This document shows, in pieces, positions 32,183 to 43,816 of a stretch of 45,997 nucleotides of DNA. The notes below the pieces were generated by a model. That model was not told the DNA's origin, ran no database searches, and saw only the letters and a list, made by a program, of their open reading frames with translations. Source of the DNA: Burkholderiaceae bacterium. Its GTDB lineage: Bacteria > Pseudomonadota > Gammaproteobacteria > Burkholderiales > Burkholderiaceae_C. The stretch covers positions 1 through 45,997 of the forward strand of contig JACSRM010000227.1 in assembly GCA_014879745.1 (NCBI GenBank), read 5' to 3'. Position numbers and translations under genes: made by a program. Positions within the stretch are counted from its first letter, which is position 1. Each line of letters begins with the position of its first letter.

Positions 32183-33637
<1,455 letters not shown>

Positions 33638-34093: not shown

Positions 34094-36028
34094 TCAGGCG
34101 CTGGTCGATGCCGCGGACGGCCGGGTGACGGCCGACGGCACGAAGGCGTCGGTGAAGCAAAAGCCCTCGCCCAGCCCCTGCTCGATGAAGGCCGGCACCG
34201 CCGCCTCGACCATCTTGACCGAGCCGCAGACGTAGACCTCGTGCTGGCGCAAGTCGGGGAAGTCGGCCAGCATCGCCTCGTGGACGAGCCCGGTGCGCCC
34301 GCTCCAATGGCCCTGCGGATCCGGCTCCGAGAGGACCGGAACGAAGCGGAAGCACGGGTTCTCGCGCTGCCACTGCTCGGCAAGCGCGATCGCATACAGA
34401 TCGTCCTGCTTGCGAACACCCCAGTAGAGCCACATCGGCCGCGTGAGGCCGCGCGCGAAGGCATCCTCGACGATGCTCTTGATCGGCGCGAAGCCGGTCG
34501 CACCGGCAACGAACAGGATCGGGTGCGCGCTGTCGCTGAGCGTGAAGTGGCCGAGCGGCCCCTCGATGCGCAGCGTGTCGCCGACCTTCATCGACGTGAA
34601 GACGGCGCCGGTGAAGCGCCCGCCCGGGATGCGCCGCACGTGCAGTTCGATCTGGCCTTGCTGCTGCGGCGGGTTGGCGAACGAGAACGCGCGCCGTTGC
34701 CCGTCTTCGAGGATGATGTTGATGTACTGGCCGGCCTTGAACGGCAGCGTCGCGCCCTGCGGGAGCGAGAGCATGAGCCGGATCACCTCGGGCGCGAGGC
34801 GCTCCATGCTCTCGACGCGGACATCGAACTCGTGGATCGCGGCGAGTGCGGCGCGCGCGTCGGCCTCGACCTCGATGACGACGTCGGAGAGCGCCGTCGC
34901 GCAGCACATCAAGGCCTGGCCGCGGGCACGCGCGGCCTCGGGCAACGCACTCGGCTGGTAGGGCCCGAGATCGACGTTGCCGTGCAGCACGGTGCACAGG
35001 CACACGCCGCAGCCGCCGTTGCGGCACTCGTACGGCAGTTCGAGGCCATTGCGCAACCCGGCGTCGAGCAGCGTCTCGCCGCTGCGCACCGGCAGCGGAT
35101 CGCTCGTGCCGCTCGCGTGGTGCACCTCGAGATGAAAGTCCTGCGCGCGCTTGCGGCCGAACTTCGGCGGCAGCCACGGCAGCAGCACGAGCACGCCGGT
35201 GGCGCCGACGAGCAGCGCCCAGACCTGGCCGATTGGCCAGACCGAGACGAGCGGCAGCACGGCGAGGTAGAACCAGTCGAACTGCAGCGTCGTCACCGCC
35301 TCGCCGAGGTTGGCCGCGCCGCCCTGGCTCAGCACCGGACGCAGCGCCGACAGCAGCAGCAGCGTGATGATCACGCTTGTCATGATCGGCCGCGGCGGGT
35401 TGGTGCGCGCCTTCGGCACGCGCTGGACGTGGACCCATTGCACGAGCAGCAGCACGAGCGAGATGCCGATGTGCATGAACGCGAGCAGCGAGAAGAAGCG
35501 GTCGTTGACGCTGTCGGGGTAGATGAAGTTGCGCATCAGCGTGCCGCCGAAGCCGGGCAACCAGTCGAACCACTCGAAGGCAGCGACGATCGTGTACTGC
35601 GCGAGGTGGTCCCACGGCAGCATGAAGCCGGTGATGCCCGCCGAGTAGACGAGCCAGATCAGCACCACGCCGGTCACCCACGAAAACCAGCGGAAACCGC
35701 GGAAGTGGTTGAACGCGAAGTGGCGCACCATGTGGATCAGCATCGTGATGACGAAGCCGTCCGAGGCGTAGCGGTGGATGCTGCGCAGCACGCCGCCGGC
35801 GAACCACTGCCCGTGCGTCAGGCTCTCGACCGAGGTATAGGCGTCGGGGACGCCGGTCTCGAAGAACGCATACAGGTAGAGCCCGGTTGCGGCGACGACC
35901 CAGAACAGGAAGAAGCTGATCGCGCCGAGGTGGTAGAGCGGATTGAGCCGGTCGCCGAAGGCGGCGTTGAAGACCGCCTCGACCCGCATGAACAGCCATT
36001 GCAGGCCGCGTTGCAGAGCTTTGAGCAT
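34094..36028 (-). CDS. Fusion: cytochrome b N-terminal domain + [2Fe-2S] ferredoxin + FAD/NAD(P)-binding reductase
   Basis: MRVEAVFNAAFGDRLNPLYHLGAISFFLFW...cytochrome b helices; LPYECRNGGCGVCLCTV; RAFSFANPP; ILFVAGATGFAPIKSIVEDA. Confidence 0.88.
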   Translation of the reverse strand: MLKALQRGLQWLFMRVEAVFNAAFGDRLNPLYHLGAISFFLFWVVAATGLYLYAFFETGVPDAYTSVESLTHGQWFAGGVLRSIHRYASDGFVITMLIHMVRHFAFNHFRGFRWFSWVTGVVLIWLVYSAGITGFMLPWDHLAQYTIVAAFEWFDWLPGFGGTLMRNFIYPDSVNDRFFSLLAFMHIGISLVLLLVQWVHVQRVPKARTNPPRPIMTSVIITLLLLSALRPVLSQGGAANLGEAVTTLQFDWFYLAVLPLVSVWPIGQVWALLVGATGVLVLLPWLPPKFGRKRAQDFHLEVHHASGTSDPLPVRSGETLLDAGLRNGLELPYECRNGGCGVCLCTVLHGNVDLGPYQPSALPEAARARGQALMCCATALSDVVIEVEADARAALAAIHEFDVRVESMERLAPEVIRLMLSLPQGATLPFKAGQYINIILEDGQRRAFSFANPPQQQGQIELHVRRIPGGRFTGAVFTSMKVGDTLRIEGPLGHFTLSDSAHPILFVAGATGFAPIKSIVEDAFARGLTRPMWLYWGVRKQDDLYAIALAEQWQRENPCFRFVPVLSEPDPQGHWSGRTGLVHEAMLADFPDLRQHEVYVCGSVKMVEAAVPAFIEQGLGEGFCFTDAFVPSAVTRPSAASTSA

Positions 36029-36234
36029 CAGTAACCCCGGATCCGGCAGTTGGACGCGCCCGAGCGGGCCGCCCTCGGGTGCGATAGCAAGGCGCAAACC
36101 GCAGCGATAGCACCCGCTATCGCGAGGATGTGCAACGCCGCGAGCGGACTCGAGGGCGGCTCGATCGGGTGCGCAGCGCTGTCACCCGGGCGATGGGCGT
36201 GGTCGTGGGAACGAATGACGACAGGCATGGACAT
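36028..36234 (-). CDS. Putative 68-aa single-TM small membrane protein
   Basis: MSMPVVIRSHDHAHRPGDSAAHPIEPPSSPLAALHILAIAGAIAAVCALLSHPRAARSGASNCRIRGY; TGATG overlap with downstream cytochrome b fusion. Confidence 0.45.
   Translation of the reverse strand: MSMPVVIRSHDHAHRPGDSAAHPIEPPSSPLAALHILAIAGAIAAVCALLSHPRAARSGASNCRIRGY
36087..36142. repeat. Palindromic core repeat, copy 2
   Basis: GCAAGGCGCAAACCGCAG-[CGATAGC ACCC GCTATCG]-CGAGGATGTGCAACGCCGC. Confidence 0.75.
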
Positions 36235-36254
36235 TTCCGGCGAGAGCGCAGCGG

Positions 36255-38200: not shown

Positions 38201-39740
38201 ACCGAAGTTTCTCATGTGAAGGCCCCGCGGCGGCCGATACCCGCAGTCCGAGTACGGCAAGCGCCGCCTCGACGGCGGCCTCGTCGCCGGCGTCGGCCCA
38301 GACCGTTGCCACCCGTTCGGCCGGCACCGAACGGCGCAGATGCGGCTCGCGCAGACCGAGCAGGCGTTCGCGCGTCCAGCGCTGACCGAGGCGGAAGGTG
38401 CAGCCGCCTTCGCTGCACCCGGTGACGAGCACGCCATCGGCGCCGCCGCGCAACGCATATTCGACGAACGAAGGCGGCAGCATGCCGGTGCAGATCAGGC
38501 TGAACGCGGCGACGCCGGCGCCGGCGAGCGATTCGACGCGCGCGCCGTGATCGCAGCCGATGACGACAAGCCTCGGTCGATCGTCCGGCATGCGTGCAAG
38601 CGCCGCTTCCACGCGCTCGCGCAGGTCGTTGATCGGCGACTGCGGCATGTCGATGCCGGTGACGAGCGCGGCGCCCTTGCGAAACGGCGTCGACGACGGG
38701 CAGGCGCCGACGCAGATGCCGCAGCTCGCGCACAGGTCGGCGTCGACCTGCGCCATCTGGCGCCCGATGCGTCCGTTCGGGTGCGTGACCATCGTGATCG
38801 CCGTATACGGGCAGTCCTCGAAGCAGCGCCGGCAGCCGTTGCAGTTGGCGGGGTCGACGACCGCCACCGGCGCCGCCGCAGGCTGTGGCAGGAAGGGCAG
38901 CGCGAAGAGCGCGATCAGCGTGCCGGCGAGGAGCAGCCACACCGCGCCCGCCGAAGTCGCGTAGACGAGCGGATGGATGAAGAGCAGCCACCAGTCGAGC
39001 GCGAGCGTCGCCGGCACGACCGAGAGGTCGGCCGGGCCCTGGCTGTGCACCGGCAGCACGAGCGCCACCGCGATGAGCGACGCCGTGACCCCGATCGCGA
39101 GCCGCAGCGGCGGAAAGGCCTCGGCACGCGCCAGACGCTGGATGTGAAACCACATCGCGAAGACGATGAAGAGCGCCACCCCGAGATGGACGAAGATGAA
39201 GAGCGAGAACAGCCGGTCGCCGACGCTTTCGACGCCGATGAAGTTGCGCGTCAGCGGCGAGCCGAAGATCGGCAGCCAGTCGAGGAATTCGGCGGTCGCG
39301 ATCGCCGAGAACTGGCCGAGCTTGTCCCAGTTCAGCCAGAAGCCGCCGATCGCGGAGGCGAATGCAAGCGGCAGCAGCGGCACGCCGGTCAGCCACGAGA
39401 AGCGGCGAACACCGCTGTAGCGGCCGAACAGCCATTCGCGCAGCAGATGCGCGAGCATCGTGACGACGAACGCATCGGCCGCATAGCGATGCAGGCTGCG
39501 CAGCCAGCCGCCGAGAAACCATTGCTCGCGTGAAAGTCCGTCGATCGAGACGTAGGCCCCGGTGGCCGAGGTATCGAGCACGGCATAGAGGTAGATGCCG
39601 GTCACCGCGAGCAGCCAGAAGCACAGGAAGGCGAGCGCGCCGAGGTGTCGCAGCGGGTTGAGCGCACCGCCGCCGACGACGCGGTCGAGTGCCGTCTCGG
39701 CGCGCTGCCAGAGCGCGCCGCAACGCTCGCGCGGATTCAT
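38193..39740 (-). CDS. Fusion: cytochrome b N-terminal domain + two 4Fe-4S motifs + MvhD-like iron-sulfur domain
   Basis: NPLRHLGALAFLCFWLLAVTGIYLY; CNGCRRCFEDCPYTAI and CASCGICVGACPSSTP; SLICTGMLPPSFVEYALRGGADGVLVTGCSEGGCTFRLGQRW. Confidence 0.88.
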   Translation of the reverse strand: MNPRERCGALWQRAETALDRVVGGGALNPLRHLGALAFLCFWLLAVTGIYLYAVLDTSATGAYVSIDGLSREQWFLGGWLRSLHRYAADAFVVTMLAHLLREWLFGRYSGVRRFSWLTGVPLLPLAFASAIGGFWLNWDKLGQFSAIATAEFLDWLPIFGSPLTRNFIGVESVGDRLFSLFIFVHLGVALFIVFAMWFHIQRLARAEAFPPLRLAIGVTASLIAVALVLPVHSQGPADLSVVPATLALDWWLLFIHPLVYATSAGAVWLLLAGTLIALFALPFLPQPAAAPVAVVDPANCNGCRRCFEDCPYTAITMVTHPNGRIGRQMAQVDADLCASCGICVGACPSSTPFRKGAALVTGIDMPQSPINDLRERVEAALARMPDDRPRLVVIGCDHGARVESLAGAGVAAFSLICTGMLPPSFVEYALRGGADGVLVTGCSEGGCTFRLGQRWTRERLLGLREPHLRRSVPAERVATVWADAGDEAAVEAALAVLGLRVSAAAGPSHEKLRYG

Positions 39741-40642
39741 CCCTCGGCGCTCGCGCGCGGTGGAAACTGACCGTTGGCCTTCGGCTTCTGCGCCGCGCCT
39801 TGCGTGCGCCGCAGGCGGCGGCTGGCGCGCAATTCGCCGACGAAGAACCAGAGCATCGCGATGACGAAGGTCACGCCGCCGGCGATCTCGAACGCGAGCG
39901 CGTAGCTGACGCGATATTCGCCGGTCGCCGGATCGTAGATCGAGCACAGGATGCGCACGCGGTCGACGAGGTCGGCCAGGTCGAGCCGCTGCGGCAGCGG
40001 CTCGTTGCGCAGCAGCTGGCGGATCGGCTCGGCGAGTTCATCGGCGCTGAAGTCTTCACCGTACACCTGGCGGTAGATGCGGCCCTGGCCATCGACCACC
40101 GTGACCTGCAGCAGGTGGTCGAAGCCCGCCTGGGTTGGCGTGTAGGCGAATCCGAAGTCGCGCGTCAGCGCCTCGACGGCCGACGGATGCGGGCTCAGGA
40201 ACTCCCAATTCGCCGCGGTGATGCGTTGCTGCGCGGCAAACGCCTTCATCGACGCCGGCGAATCGGCCGGTAGATTGAAGCCGATGCTGACGATGTTGTA
40301 CTGCCGCGGGTCCATGCTGCGGCCCATGCCCTCGATCGCCGCGGCGATCGCGCGCGTGCTCGTCGGGCAGACCTGGAAGCAGCCGGTGTACATGAAATTC
40401 ACGAGCAGCGGCTTGCCGCGGTAGTCGGCGAGGCGCACCGGCTTGCCGGCGCGATCGAGCAGCGTGTAGTCGCCGATCTTGCTGCCGATCGCGCCCTGGC
40501 TGATGCGCAGCGCCTCGGCCGGGTCGAGCGTGGCGCGCGAGACGGGTGCCTCGTCGGCGACCGCGCTGGCGACGAGCCCGGCCAGACAGATTCCGAGCAG
40601 GGTGACCAAACCCCGGCAACTGCGGGCGGCAGGCTTGTGCAT
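39737..40642 (-). CDS. SCO1/SenC family copper chaperone with C-terminal TM extension
   Basis: LLVNFMYTGCFQVCPTSTRAIAAAIEGM; FAYTPTQAGFDHLLQVTVVDGQGRIYRQVYG. Confidence 0.88.
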   Translation of the reverse strand: MHKPAARSCRGLVTLLGICLAGLVASAVADEAPVSRATLDPAEALRISQGAIGSKIGDYTLLDRAGKPVRLADYRGKPLLVNFMYTGCFQVCPTSTRAIAAAIEGMGRSMDPRQYNIVSIGFNLPADSPASMKAFAAQQRITAANWEFLSPHPSAVEALTRDFGFAYTPTQAGFDHLLQVTVVDGQGRIYRQVYGEDFSADELAEPIRQLLRNEPLPQRLDLADLVDRVRILCSIYDPATGEYRVSYALAFEIAGGVTFVIAMLWFFVGELRASRRLRRTQGAAQKPKANGQFPPRASAEG

Positions 40643-40652
40643 GCCGCAAATC

Positions 40653-41552
40653 CTAGCGCAACACGCCGTCGAGGCTCGCTCCGGCCAGCACCAGACTGAG
40701 TTGAAGCAGCGATGCGAAGAAGGAAGCCATCGCGGTCTTGCGGCTTGGCCGGCGCGCCAGCAGCCAGGACTTGTGCAGGAACACCGCGCCGCCGATGGCC
40801 GCTCCCGCGAAGTACCAGACTCCGGCGCCGAAGAGCACCGGCAGCAGCGACGCCGACACCAGTGCGACCGTGCTCCAGAAGACGGCCTGGGCCGCGCGCT
40901 GCGTGCCGACGACGACCGGCAGCATCGGCACGCCGGCTGCGGCATAGTCATCCTGGTTCGCGATCGCGAGACTCCAGAAGTGCGGCGGCGTCCACAGGAA
41001 GAGCACGAGCGCGAGCAGCAGTGGGAGCGCTCCGATCGCGGGGTCGACCGCAGCGGCGCCGGCGAGCACCGCGAAGCTGCCGGCAAGGCCGCCGACGACG
41101 ATATTGAGCCAGCTGCGCCGCTTGAGCCACACGGTATAGACGACCGCGTAGAAAAAGGCGCCGAGGAAGACATAGAGCGCGGCCCAGACGTTGAGCGCCC
41201 ACCACGCCGCGGCAACCGACAACGCGAGCAATGCACCGATCACGACCAGCCAGAGCGGAGTATGCGGCAGCGCGCCGGTGACGAAGGCGCGCTTGCGGGT
41301 GCGCGCCATGAGCCGATCGGACTCGGCTTCGACATACTGGTTGAATGCGCCTGCGCTCGCCGACGCCACCATCACCGAGACCGCGAGCACGAGCACCTGC
41401 GCCAGGCTCAGCGCCGGGCCCGGCGTGAAGGCAAAGCCGACCAGCGCGGTCAGCATGATCATCACGCCGATCCGCAGCTTGAACAGCCCGAGCACGTCGC
41501 GCACCAGCCGGGCCGGCGTGCGGGGCGCGAGTGCAAGGGCCGGCTTCATCAC
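40653..41552 (-). CDS. ctaB: Heme o synthase (protoheme IX farnesyltransferase)
   Basis: ASAGAFNQYVEAESDRLMARTRKRAFVTG; multiple TM; WTPPHFWSLAI. Confidence 0.95.
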   Translation of the reverse strand: MMKPALALAPRTPARLVRDVLGLFKLRIGVMIMLTALVGFAFTPGPALSLAQVLVLAVSVMVASASAGAFNQYVEAESDRLMARTRKRAFVTGALPHTPLWLVVIGALLALSVAAAWWALNVWAALYVFLGAFFYAVVYTVWLKRRSWLNIVVGGLAGSFAVLAGAAAVDPAIGALPLLLALVLFLWTPPHFWSLAIANQDDYAAAGVPMLPVVVGTQRAAQAVFWSTVALVSASLLPVLFGAGVWYFAGAAIGGAVFLHKSWLLARRPSRKTAMASFFASLLQLSLVLAGASLDGVLR

Positions 41553-41562
41553 CGCGTTCCGG

Positions 41563-43263
41563 TCAGGACAGGCCCCAGACCTGCGACAGGTACTTCCAGT
41601 TGATGAAGTAGTACAGCACGAAGGCGACGAAGAACACCATCGTCAGCACGAAGGTGCCGGGAGCGACGAAGCCGGCCGAGCCGTGGCTCTGTACCGCGAC
41701 GGTCGGCGCCGCGCGCGCCAGACGCACCGGCTTGGCACTCGTCGCGCCGCCTTCGAGTTTCTTGCCCCACAGCAGCGAACCGACCGTGATGTAGATGTAG
41801 ATCGCGCCGCCGACTATCGCGGCGACGCCGCCGACGCCGACCATTCCCATCATCAGGTAGGCCGCACCCGGCCATTCGTAGGCCATCGGCGCGCCGGCGA
41901 AGGCCATGTCCCAGTGCCGGCGGGCGACGCCGAGCGTGCCGGCGCCCATCATCACGAGGCAGAAGAAATACATCGAGAAGCCGAAGATGTACGGCTGCAG
42001 CCTGGCCAGCCCCGGGTTGATCATCTCGCGGCGGAACAGCACCGGGATCAGGTAGTAGGTCAACGCCATGAACGTCAGCGTCGTTCCGACGACGACCGTG
42101 GCGTGGAAGTGCCCCGGCACGTAGATCGTGTTGTGGATCAGCATGTTGAGCTGTTCGGTGCCCATCATCACGCCGGTGATGCCGCCCAGGAAGCCGAAGC
42201 CGACGAGCGCGATGAATACGCCCGAGAACACCGGGTTGCCCCACGGCGCCTTGCGCAGCCACTCGAAGAGGCCCTTGTTGTAGCCCTTGGCGCGCTGCGC
42301 GACTTCCATCGCGCCCGGCACGCTGAGCGCGTGGATCATCGACGCGAGCACCGCGAAGTACATGAAGTAGCTCGTATTGACGACCTTCCACGAGGTGCTG
42401 ACGCCCGGATCGGCGAGGATGTGGTGGGCGCTGGCGAGCTGCAGGAAGACGATGTAGAGCAGGAAGGCACCACGGCTCACGCGCTCGGACATCGGCTTCG
42501 CGCCGAACGCGATCGCCGCGACCAGATACCAGATCGAGATGTGCGCCGCGACGTTGATCTGCTGCGACGAGTGCCCGAACGCCCACCAGATGACGCGATA
42601 GGCGAGCGGATCGACGTTCTCGATCAGGCCGATCGACATCAGCCAGGTCGGAATCAGGATCATCGCGCCCGAGACGATCGTGAAGACGGCGATGATCGCC
42701 GCCGTCGTCGCGCCGAACGTGACGAGCGGCACCGAGCCGTCGTAGGTGTTGTCGCGCTTGGCGACGACGAGCGTGCCGAAAAAGACGAAGCACGCGATCA
42801 GCGCGCCGACGGCGAACAGGATCAGGCCGAGATAGAAGCTCTGCGCCGCCATCATCGGCACGTAGCTCGTCATCATCACGCTCGACTCGCCGGCATAGAC
42901 GGCGTAGTTGTTGACGACGGCGCCGATCACCATCAGTGCGAAAGCGAACCAGGCGATCTTCGGCGTCGCGATCCGGCAGCGCAGCAGCACCGACGACGCG
43001 AAGTACAGCACCGCGATCTCGAAGAAGATGATCCAGAAGATCAGCATGTTGATGCCGTGCGCGGTGAGCACTTGATAGAAGGTGTCGGCCTCGAGCCAGT
43101 GGATCGCGGGCCACCGCGTCAACACGACGCCGATCGCGAGAATGCCGCCGATCAGCAGGCAGACGACGGCGACGAACGCGTTGGCGAAGATCAGCTTCTC
43201 GGCGTTGGCCTCGAATTGCAGGCCCGACCTGGGGCAGGTCCGGTACGTGATGGCGCTGGACAT
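41563..43263 (-). CDS. ba3-like heme-copper enzyme subunit I with GHSSQQ in place of GHPxVY (candidate NO-reductase type)
   Basis: VLTAHGINMLIFW, WWAFGHSSQQINVAAHISIWY, ASAHHILADPG, NTIYVPGHFHATVVVG. Confidence 0.9.
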   Translation of the reverse strand: MSSAITYRTCPRSGLQFEANAEKLIFANAFVAVVCLLIGGILAIGVVLTRWPAIHWLEADTFYQVLTAHGINMLIFWIIFFEIAVLYFASSVLLRCRIATPKIAWFAFALMVIGAVVNNYAVYAGESSVMMTSYVPMMAAQSFYLGLILFAVGALIACFVFFGTLVVAKRDNTYDGSVPLVTFGATTAAIIAVFTIVSGAMILIPTWLMSIGLIENVDPLAYRVIWWAFGHSSQQINVAAHISIWYLVAAIAFGAKPMSERVSRGAFLLYIVFLQLASAHHILADPGVSTSWKVVNTSYFMYFAVLASMIHALSVPGAMEVAQRAKGYNKGLFEWLRKAPWGNPVFSGVFIALVGFGFLGGITGVMMGTEQLNMLIHNTIYVPGHFHATVVVGTTLTFMALTYYLIPVLFRREMINPGLARLQPYIFGFSMYFFCLVMMGAGTLGVARRHWDMAFAGAPMAYEWPGAAYLMMGMVGVGGVAAIVGGAIYIYITVGSLLWGKKLEGGATSAKPVRLARAAPTVAVQSHGSAGFVAPGTFVLTMVFFVAFVLYYFINWKYLSQVWGLS

Positions 43264-43276
43264 TTGTGCTCCTCTG

Positions 43277-43816
43277 TTATTTCACGTACATGTGGCTCAC
43301 CATCGAGTGATGGTTGATGCCGCAGAACTCGTTGCACACGATCGAGAACCGGCCGGACTGGTTCGGCGTGACGTTGACGACATGCTCGAAGCCGGGAACG
43401 ACCTGGATGTTGATATTGGTCGGCTGCAGCGAGAAGCCGTGGTTGTAGTCGAGCGAGGAAAGGTGCAGCCGGTAGGTCTTGCCCTTCTCGAGCTCGATGA
43501 TCGGCCACCAGCTCCACAGCCGCGCGACGAGGTAGACGTCGCCCCCCGGCGGCGGCGCGACGACCGGGATCTTGTCCTCGCCTTCGGTGCGCACCGTGTA
43601 CTTGTCGACCACCGCCTGCGCCTTCGCGACGAAGGCATCGGGCGTGATGCGGTAGGTCTCGGTCGACAGGTTCTGCTTGCCGTAGATGTGCCAGCCGACC
43701 ATCATGAAGAACATCACCATGCACCAGGCGAAGGCGATCGCGATCCAGGTGCCTTCGACCCGGTCCAGCGGATGCTTCCACCACAGTCTCTCTGCCGGTG
43801 GCAGGATTGCGCTCAT
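43277..43816 (-). CDS. Subunit II with intact CuA site
   Basis: SSLDYNHGFSLQPTNINIQVVPG...IVCNEFCGINHHSM. Confidence 0.93.
   Translation of the reverse strand: MSAILPPAERLWWKHPLDRVEGTWIAIAFAWCMVMFFMMVGWHIYGKQNLSTETYRITPDAFVAKAQAVVDKYTVRTEGEDKIPVVAPPPGGDVYLVARLWSWWPIIELEKGKTYRLHLSSLDYNHGFSLQPTNINIQVVPGFEHVVNVTPNQSGRFSIVCNEFCGINHHSMVSHMYVK

Follow-up and report, generated by a model that had tools for sequence, protein, structure and literature searches.

A cytochrome b–[2Fe-2S]–NAD(P)H reductase fusion encoded and co-inherited with a predicted eNOR-type NO reductase

The last gene of an eight-gene cluster from a Burkholderiaceae bacterium encodes a protein in which a dihaem cytochrome b is joined to a [2Fe-2S] domain and a FAD/NAD(P)H reductase. 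As judged from sequence and genomic setting, this fusion is rather likely to be an electron-transfer subunit of eNOR-type NO respiration, in which NAD(P)H oxidation would support the reduction of NO to N2O. We assign it a role in NO respiration because it is encoded with an eNOR and is almost always co-inherited with it. eNOR is reportedly a NO reductase of the B family of heme-copper oxidases (HCOs), described by Hemp and Gennis in 2008 and by Murali et al. in 2024. The sequence analysed here, referred to as the window, comprises 45,997 nucleotides (GenBank assembly GCA_014879745.1, contig JACSRM010000227.1). The first-pass annotation had described the fusion as a self-contained carrier of electrons from NAD(P)H to heme b, which is plausible for the protein itself; the cluster as a whole, however, encodes more than a lone cytochrome b reductase and, by the signature of its subunit I, represents a NO reductase system of eNOR type.

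Results

Gene cluster

The cluster runs along the minus strand from 43816 to 34094 in the order subunit II, subunit I, CyoE, SCO, cytb-FlpD, orfX, HCOL and the fusion (Table 1), and its genes overlap or sit within about 14 bp of one another, except for the gap of 226 bp between HCOL and the fusion. Most of 80 loci, drawn from Burkholderiales, Rhodocyclaceae, Accumulibacter, Steroidobacteraceae and other groups, share this gene order. Of the 51 loci that carry both HCOL and the fusion on one strand, 33 have the two genes overlapping by 4 bp. The spacer of the window is a dispersed repeat, found at 34 places in this genome and also in its nearest relative (L009), and since most relatives have the 4-bp overlap, the wide gap is a lineage-specific insertion. 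The repeat is roughly 200 bp long, contains a perfect 8+8 hairpin (GCGATAGC-N4-GCTATCGC) and includes an open frame of about 68 codons ending in TGATG on the start of the fusion, a coincidence that is probably due to chance; RNA folding of the spacer gave no signal beyond its GC content (z -1.0). Downstream of the fusion, on the same strand, lies a SufB/SufD-type Fe-S assembly gene (32183-33637).

Table 1. Coordinates of the gene cluster in the window and the evidence for each feature
Feature	Position	Strand	Evidence
eNOR-type subunit II; CuA motif CNEFCGINHHSM intact, plus His126	43277..43816	-	Domain searches, alignment
eNOR-type subunit I, B-family HCO; GHSSQQ, Gln235 for Tyr, six metal-ligand His	41563..43263	-	Pfam, alignment, PMC8756737 table
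Heme o synthase CyoE/CtaB	40653..41549	-	TIGR01473 above its cut-off
SCO1/SenC-type copper chaperone	39737..40642	-	Pfam
cytb-[4Fe-4S]2-FlpD/MvhD fusion (cytb-FlpD), 515 aa	38193..39740	-	Pfam, sequence comparison, alignment
orfX, 177 aa; one predicted N-terminal helix, invariant C64 and C85	37682..38215	-	Domain search, alignment
HCOL, heme-copper-oxidase-like, 476 aa	36255..37685	-	Pfam COX1, alignment, AF2 model, fold search
Spacer, 226 bp, dispersed repeat	36029..36254	.	Genome matches, gene spacing in relatives
cytb-Fer2-FNR fusion, 644 aa	34094..36028	-	Pfam, alignment, PDB sequence and fold matches, topology charges

Two neighbours that had been proposed for the fusion are indeed encoded here. 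The second cytochrome b fusion of the cluster is cytb-FlpD, whose cytochrome b part is 45% identical to that of the FNR fusion, and the HCO-like gene beside the fusion is HCOL; the cluster begins with another HCO, which is complete (subunits II and I, 43816 to 41563). HCOL, a protein of HCO fold that is conserved with eNOR, keeps H84, H231 and the HxH heme pair H362 and H364, together with an additional invariant H409, and in the alignment it lacks the HH pair of CuB. Its AF2 model matched ba3 and bovine oxidase in a fold search with a TM score of about 0.7, and a sequence search of the PDB returned no relative. No known family was recognised in orfX by domain search; orfX is present at nearly every cluster locus, also outside the order.

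Architecture of the fusion

The fusion reads from an ATG at 36028 to a stop ending at 34094; a plus-strand frame over the same positions was rejected as a gene. Its annotated architecture was confirmed by a Pfam search at the exact coordinates and on the minus strand, with matches to Cytochrome_B (1.2e-16, residues 27-201), Fer2 (3.4e-15, 312-379), FAD_binding_6 (1.1e-16, 403-495) and NAD_binding_1 (2.8e-21, 506-610). The protein thus divides into a b6/subunit IV-like dihaem membrane part (1-290), a [2Fe-2S] domain (~300-390) and a FAD/NAD(P)H reductase (~398-631). In an NCBIfam search no equivalog cut-off was reached, the best match being BenC (NF040810) with 204 bits against a cut-off of 430. 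We kept 80 relatives from other genomes, nearly all of full length and 57-92% identical, so the reading frame is no product of chance; carriers include Simplicispira, Ramlibacter and an environmental Acidovorax strain. Conservation is reported from an alignment of 80 sequences, the window included. PADLOC gave no anti-phage defence match, and a role in such defence was rejected on that ground.

The predicted motif CRNGGCGVCLC is present, and its cysteines belong to the arrangement C335-x4-C340-x2-C343-x31-C375; these four, as well as C345 and C376, are conserved in all 80 sequences. Both nucleotide-binding motifs that had been expected were found (R446-A-F-S449 for FAD and GATGFAP, 509-515, for NAD), and R446, S449 and most of G509-P515 are conserved. 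The closest solved relatives of this half are GcoB, BenC and NqrF, all NAD(P)H-oxidising reductases, on which the reductase half of the AF2 model superposes with Z scores of about 28-32. Reductases of the BenC/GcoB class share the Fer2-FAD-NAD order at 28-37% identity, but they are soluble, reduce oxygenases or P450 and, unlike the fusion, have no cytochrome b. NqrF, subunit F of Na+-NQR, resembles the fusion in having a membrane anchor followed by [2Fe-2S] and FAD/NADH domains and matches its structure over the reductase half; the anchor of NqrF is one helix without heme, whereas that of the fusion is a six-helix dihaem cytochrome b.

In the membrane half, H85, H99, H186 and H200, the four predicted heme ligands, are conserved in all 80 sequences; they form one pair in helix B and one in helix D, each spaced by 14 residues as in dihaem cytochromes b. 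The helix B pair (H85 and H99) aligns with the ligands of b6, while the helix D pair lies about one turn away in an HMMER alignment without gaps, its spacing being retained. The six helices match cytochrome b6 and, weakly, subunit IV in a PDB search. No Pfam family was recognised in residues 201-300, whose only PDB matches, three in number, are to b6f subunit IV or the C-terminal half of cytochrome b; with E values of 0.2-3, this match is weak by itself, as is the alignment within it of the invariant D251-W252-F253 on the EWY of PEWY. By the positive-inside rule, the loop charges predict a cytoplasmic N terminus, with the Fer2-FNR part and the loops that follow helices B and D on the same side of the membrane; the DWF motif would face outward. 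In the AF2 model the helices follow the cytochrome b pattern (A-D, cd1, cd2, E, F); the domain placement of this model was left unused because its pTM is low (0.46). The reductase half fills both the Foldseek and the VIA lists, so the missing cytochrome b folds in them are uninformative.

The fusion resembles the cytochrome b of b6f (cytochrome b6 plus subunit IV) and bc1 in its four-helix dihaem core, cd helices and subunit IV-like helices E-F, with DWF weakly aligned at the PEWY position, but it is joined to a reductase, lacks helix G and is encoded in a cluster without a Rieske protein or a cytochrome c/f partner. A canonical bc1 or b6f complex was rejected, as the cluster encodes neither a Rieske protein nor a cytochrome c, and none of its eight proteins contains a CxxCH motif.

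The cluster HCO carries the eNOR signature

Subunit I is a B-family HCO whose nearest solved structures are 7deg and Thermus ba3, and it has GHSSQQ where O2 reductases have GHPxVY. According to Table A4 of PMC8756737, the active-site residue at this position is Y in O2 reductases, N in sNOR and CuANOR, Q in eNOR, D in gNOR and E in cNOR/qNOR. The Gln that takes the place of Tyr (Q235) is invariant in 59 subunit I sequences, including copies on Thermus and Thermomicrobium plasmids. All six His metal ligands are present in the subunit I of the window, of which H69, H231, H280, H281 and H385 are invariant over the set, and the CuA ligands of subunit II are likewise invariant in the alignment. On account of the active-site Gln, the six His ligands and the CuA-bearing subunit II, subunit I is by signature an eNOR; sNOR was rejected because the residue is Gln and not Asn. 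On Thermus thermophilus plasmid pTF24b, the eNOR-like subunit I (L090:7983-9668) has GHFK for GHFH, with Lys in place of one expected low-spin heme ligand; on the Thermus plasmid the eNOR pair lies about 3 kb from nirS.

The HCO inventory of the window's genome consists of cbb3, aa3, eNOR, HCOL and two further B-family enzymes lacking the Tyr, one with GHMYIN, that is, a sNOR-like Asn for Tyr (L097, G000:C360), and one with AHNLME, Glu for Tyr (L098, G000:C10). These Tyr-less enzymes could also reduce NO. No canonical cNOR or qNOR was seen among the HCO matches of this fragmented assembly.

Co-inheritance within the order

Co-occurrence was scored in the same 250 genomes of the window's order. 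The fusion and eNOR subunit I were each found in 19, and in 18 of these together (Fisher p=3e-25, a value that ignores shared ancestry); the fusion genomes span 16 genera. HCOL occurs in 20 genomes, and its predicted conservation with the fusion was borne out in 18 of the 19 fusion genomes. nirS-family genes were found in 66 of the 250 genomes, namely in 18 of the 19 with the fusion as compared with 48 of the 231 others (p=9e-11, again ignoring shared ancestry), and NirK in none of the 19. A nirS-family gene lies about 0.3 kb from the fusion in one genome (G126) and about 1.7 kb from eNOR subunit I in another (G022), and four nirS-family matches were found in the window's genome. Only one eNOR genome of the order (G011) lacks the fusion, and it has cytb-FlpD, while three genomes (G022, G100 and G153) have only the FNR form; every sampled eNOR genome of the order therefore has at least one cytochrome b fusion.

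Distribution outside the order

Across the phylum, 369 genomes were sampled, and eNOR subunit I was found in 28 genomes outside the window's family, none with the fusion. A phylum-wide distribution of the fusion was rejected, as it occurs in only two of the 369 genomes, both of the window's own family. Nor was it present at the Thermus and Thermomicrobium eNOR loci or in any eNOR genome sampled beyond the order. Since the eNOR of other proteobacteria, Thermus and Thermomicrobium occurs without the fusion, NO reduction as such does not require it. Among 18 eNOR regions read outside the order, ten carry cytb-FlpD and orfX near eNOR; of the remaining eight, three are cut off by the edge of the contig and five have no cytochrome b fusion in the vicinity. 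A Defluviimonas plasmid (L089) carries eNOR with cytb-FlpD and orfX, and its cytb-FlpD adjoins a hemerythrin gene. In some Accumulibacter loci, the fusion is found with cytb-FlpD and orfX, and eNOR is not within 10 kb.

In a quick, unrooted tree of the cytochrome b parts, all FNR-type rows lie on one side of a single branch (SH-aLRT 96). By this tree the FNR form branched off once, and a single duplication in which the soluble module was exchanged is the simple reading. Cytb-FlpD is the more widespread companion of proteobacterial eNOR, and the FNR fusion is its sister. As the soluble module (FNR or FlpD) is exchangeable and the cytochrome b constant, this pattern points to the cytochrome b core as the component important for eNOR.

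Discussion

The probable task of the fusion in NO respiration is electron transfer between NAD(P)H and the membrane. Reductases of the BenC/GcoB/NqrF class take up a hydride from NAD(P)H and pass single electrons to a [2Fe-2S] centre, and NqrF does so at the membrane. In the route that we propose, cytoplasmic NAD(P)H would reduce the FAD of the fusion, the FAD would reduce the [2Fe-2S] domain, and electrons would then pass to the two b hemes of the b6/subunit IV-like membrane part and on to quinone or to the neighbouring eNOR, HCOL and orfX proteins, such that NAD(P)H oxidation would support the reduction of NO to N2O. For this account we infer the function, the formation of a complex, the direction, the electron partner and the use of NADH versus NADPH. 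Quinone or eNOR may be the partner in view of the quinol-site-like DWF in place of PEWY. Among its eight proteins, the cluster encodes no c-type cytochrome and no Rieske protein that could link heme b to CuA; it follows that electrons would reach CuA either from a soluble cytochrome c downstream of bc1 or by direct contact of the cytochrome b, HCOL or orfX proteins with eNOR. No biochemistry of the fusion protein was found in the literature searched.

Electrons might instead flow in the opposite direction, with the fusion acting as a quinol:NAD(P)+ oxidoreductase that is driven by the proton motive force and re-makes NAD(P)H under anoxia, a reading that we regard as unlikely. It is favoured by Candidatus Accumulibacter, which carries full-length orthologs of the fusion (57-59% identity) adjoining the same cytb-FlpD and orfX genes. 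In 2006, Garcia Martin et al. reportedly described a novel cytochrome of Accumulibacter as a cytochrome b/b6 fused to NAD(P)- and flavin-binding domains, and are said to have proposed it as a quinol:NAD(P) reductase that lets the TCA cycle run anaerobically. We take its gene to be an ortholog of the fusion in the window, and the orthologs found here fit. PMC2289847 mentions the novel cytochrome of its reference 4, reported in 2006, and states that joint action with the glyoxylate cycle had been proposed for it during the anaerobic phase. The DWF motif, which resembles the quinol-oxidation motif PEWY, would also suit this direction. However, with the fusion so tightly associated with eNOR and nirS, NO respiration is a more fitting role than polyphosphate/PHA storage, most carriers of the fusion are not Accumulibacter, and the solved relatives of the reductase half run outward from NAD(P)H.

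A second possibility, which we consider very improbable, is quinone-based bifurcation, wherein one electron of the quinol would be delivered to eNOR, where NO is an acceptor of very high potential, and the second would travel via the b hemes and the Fe-S/FAD centres to NAD(P)+ or, alternatively, via [4Fe-4S]2-FlpD to a low-potential acceptor. Such a mechanism would be in keeping with the b6/subunit IV-like core, in which DWF aligns at the position of PEWY, with the presence of two paralogous cytochrome b cores in one cluster, which could pair, and with the FlpD/MvhD domain, a module known from bifurcating systems. The cluster, however, lacks a Rieske protein or other one-electron acceptor for the high-potential branch, and the match to subunit IV is a weak one (E about 0.2), even though its hits are the top ones of the whole PDB. 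It is equally improbable that the cluster HCO is an ordinary high-affinity ba3-type O2 reductase, with the fusion serving as a general NADH:quinone reductase of micro-aerobic respiration. Its closeness to ba3, and the ba3 oxidase (cbaAB) annotated in all Accumulibacter genomes (PMC6446978), possibly this very gene, speak for that assignment; against it stand the invariant Gln found where O2 reductases have their cross-linked active-site Tyr (PMC8756737, Table A4) and the strong association of the fusion with nirS. We give scarcely any credence to a single quinol-splitting supercomplex of both cytochrome b fusions, HCOL, orfX and eNOR, with bifurcation powered by NO reduction, in which one branch would reduce NO and the low-potential branch would lead to NAD(P)+ through the FNR arm or to a ferredoxin/thiol acceptor through the FlpD arm.

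With Accumulibacter carrying full-length orthologs, the protein family of the fusion is not new. Its eNOR context seems to be new relative to the literature compared, which excludes Murali 2024 and Garcia Martin 2006; the literature on eNOR/sNOR with Accumulibacter yielded nothing on the fusion, and no link of the Accumulibacter novel cytochrome to eNOR and nirS was found in the literature searched. The cluster shares the active-site Gln and the CuA subunit with eNOR systems and differs from them in having the fusion as an additional gene. A ba3 oxidase is annotated in all Accumulibacter genomes, many of which have no NOR gene (PMC6446978), and the NOR of genomes so described may reside in the genes annotated as ba3 oxidase; the eNOR reading would explain both the ba3 annotation and the missing NOR if those genes are the loci found here.

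If our reading of the fusion as an electron-transfer subunit of eNOR-type NO respiration is correct, a sizeable set of nirS denitrifiers, including wastewater Accumulibacter and relatives, would possess a machinery for NO respiration that includes a NAD(P)H/quinone arm of its own, and the novel cytochrome of Accumulibacter would gain a testable role in NO reduction, bearing on N2O emission.
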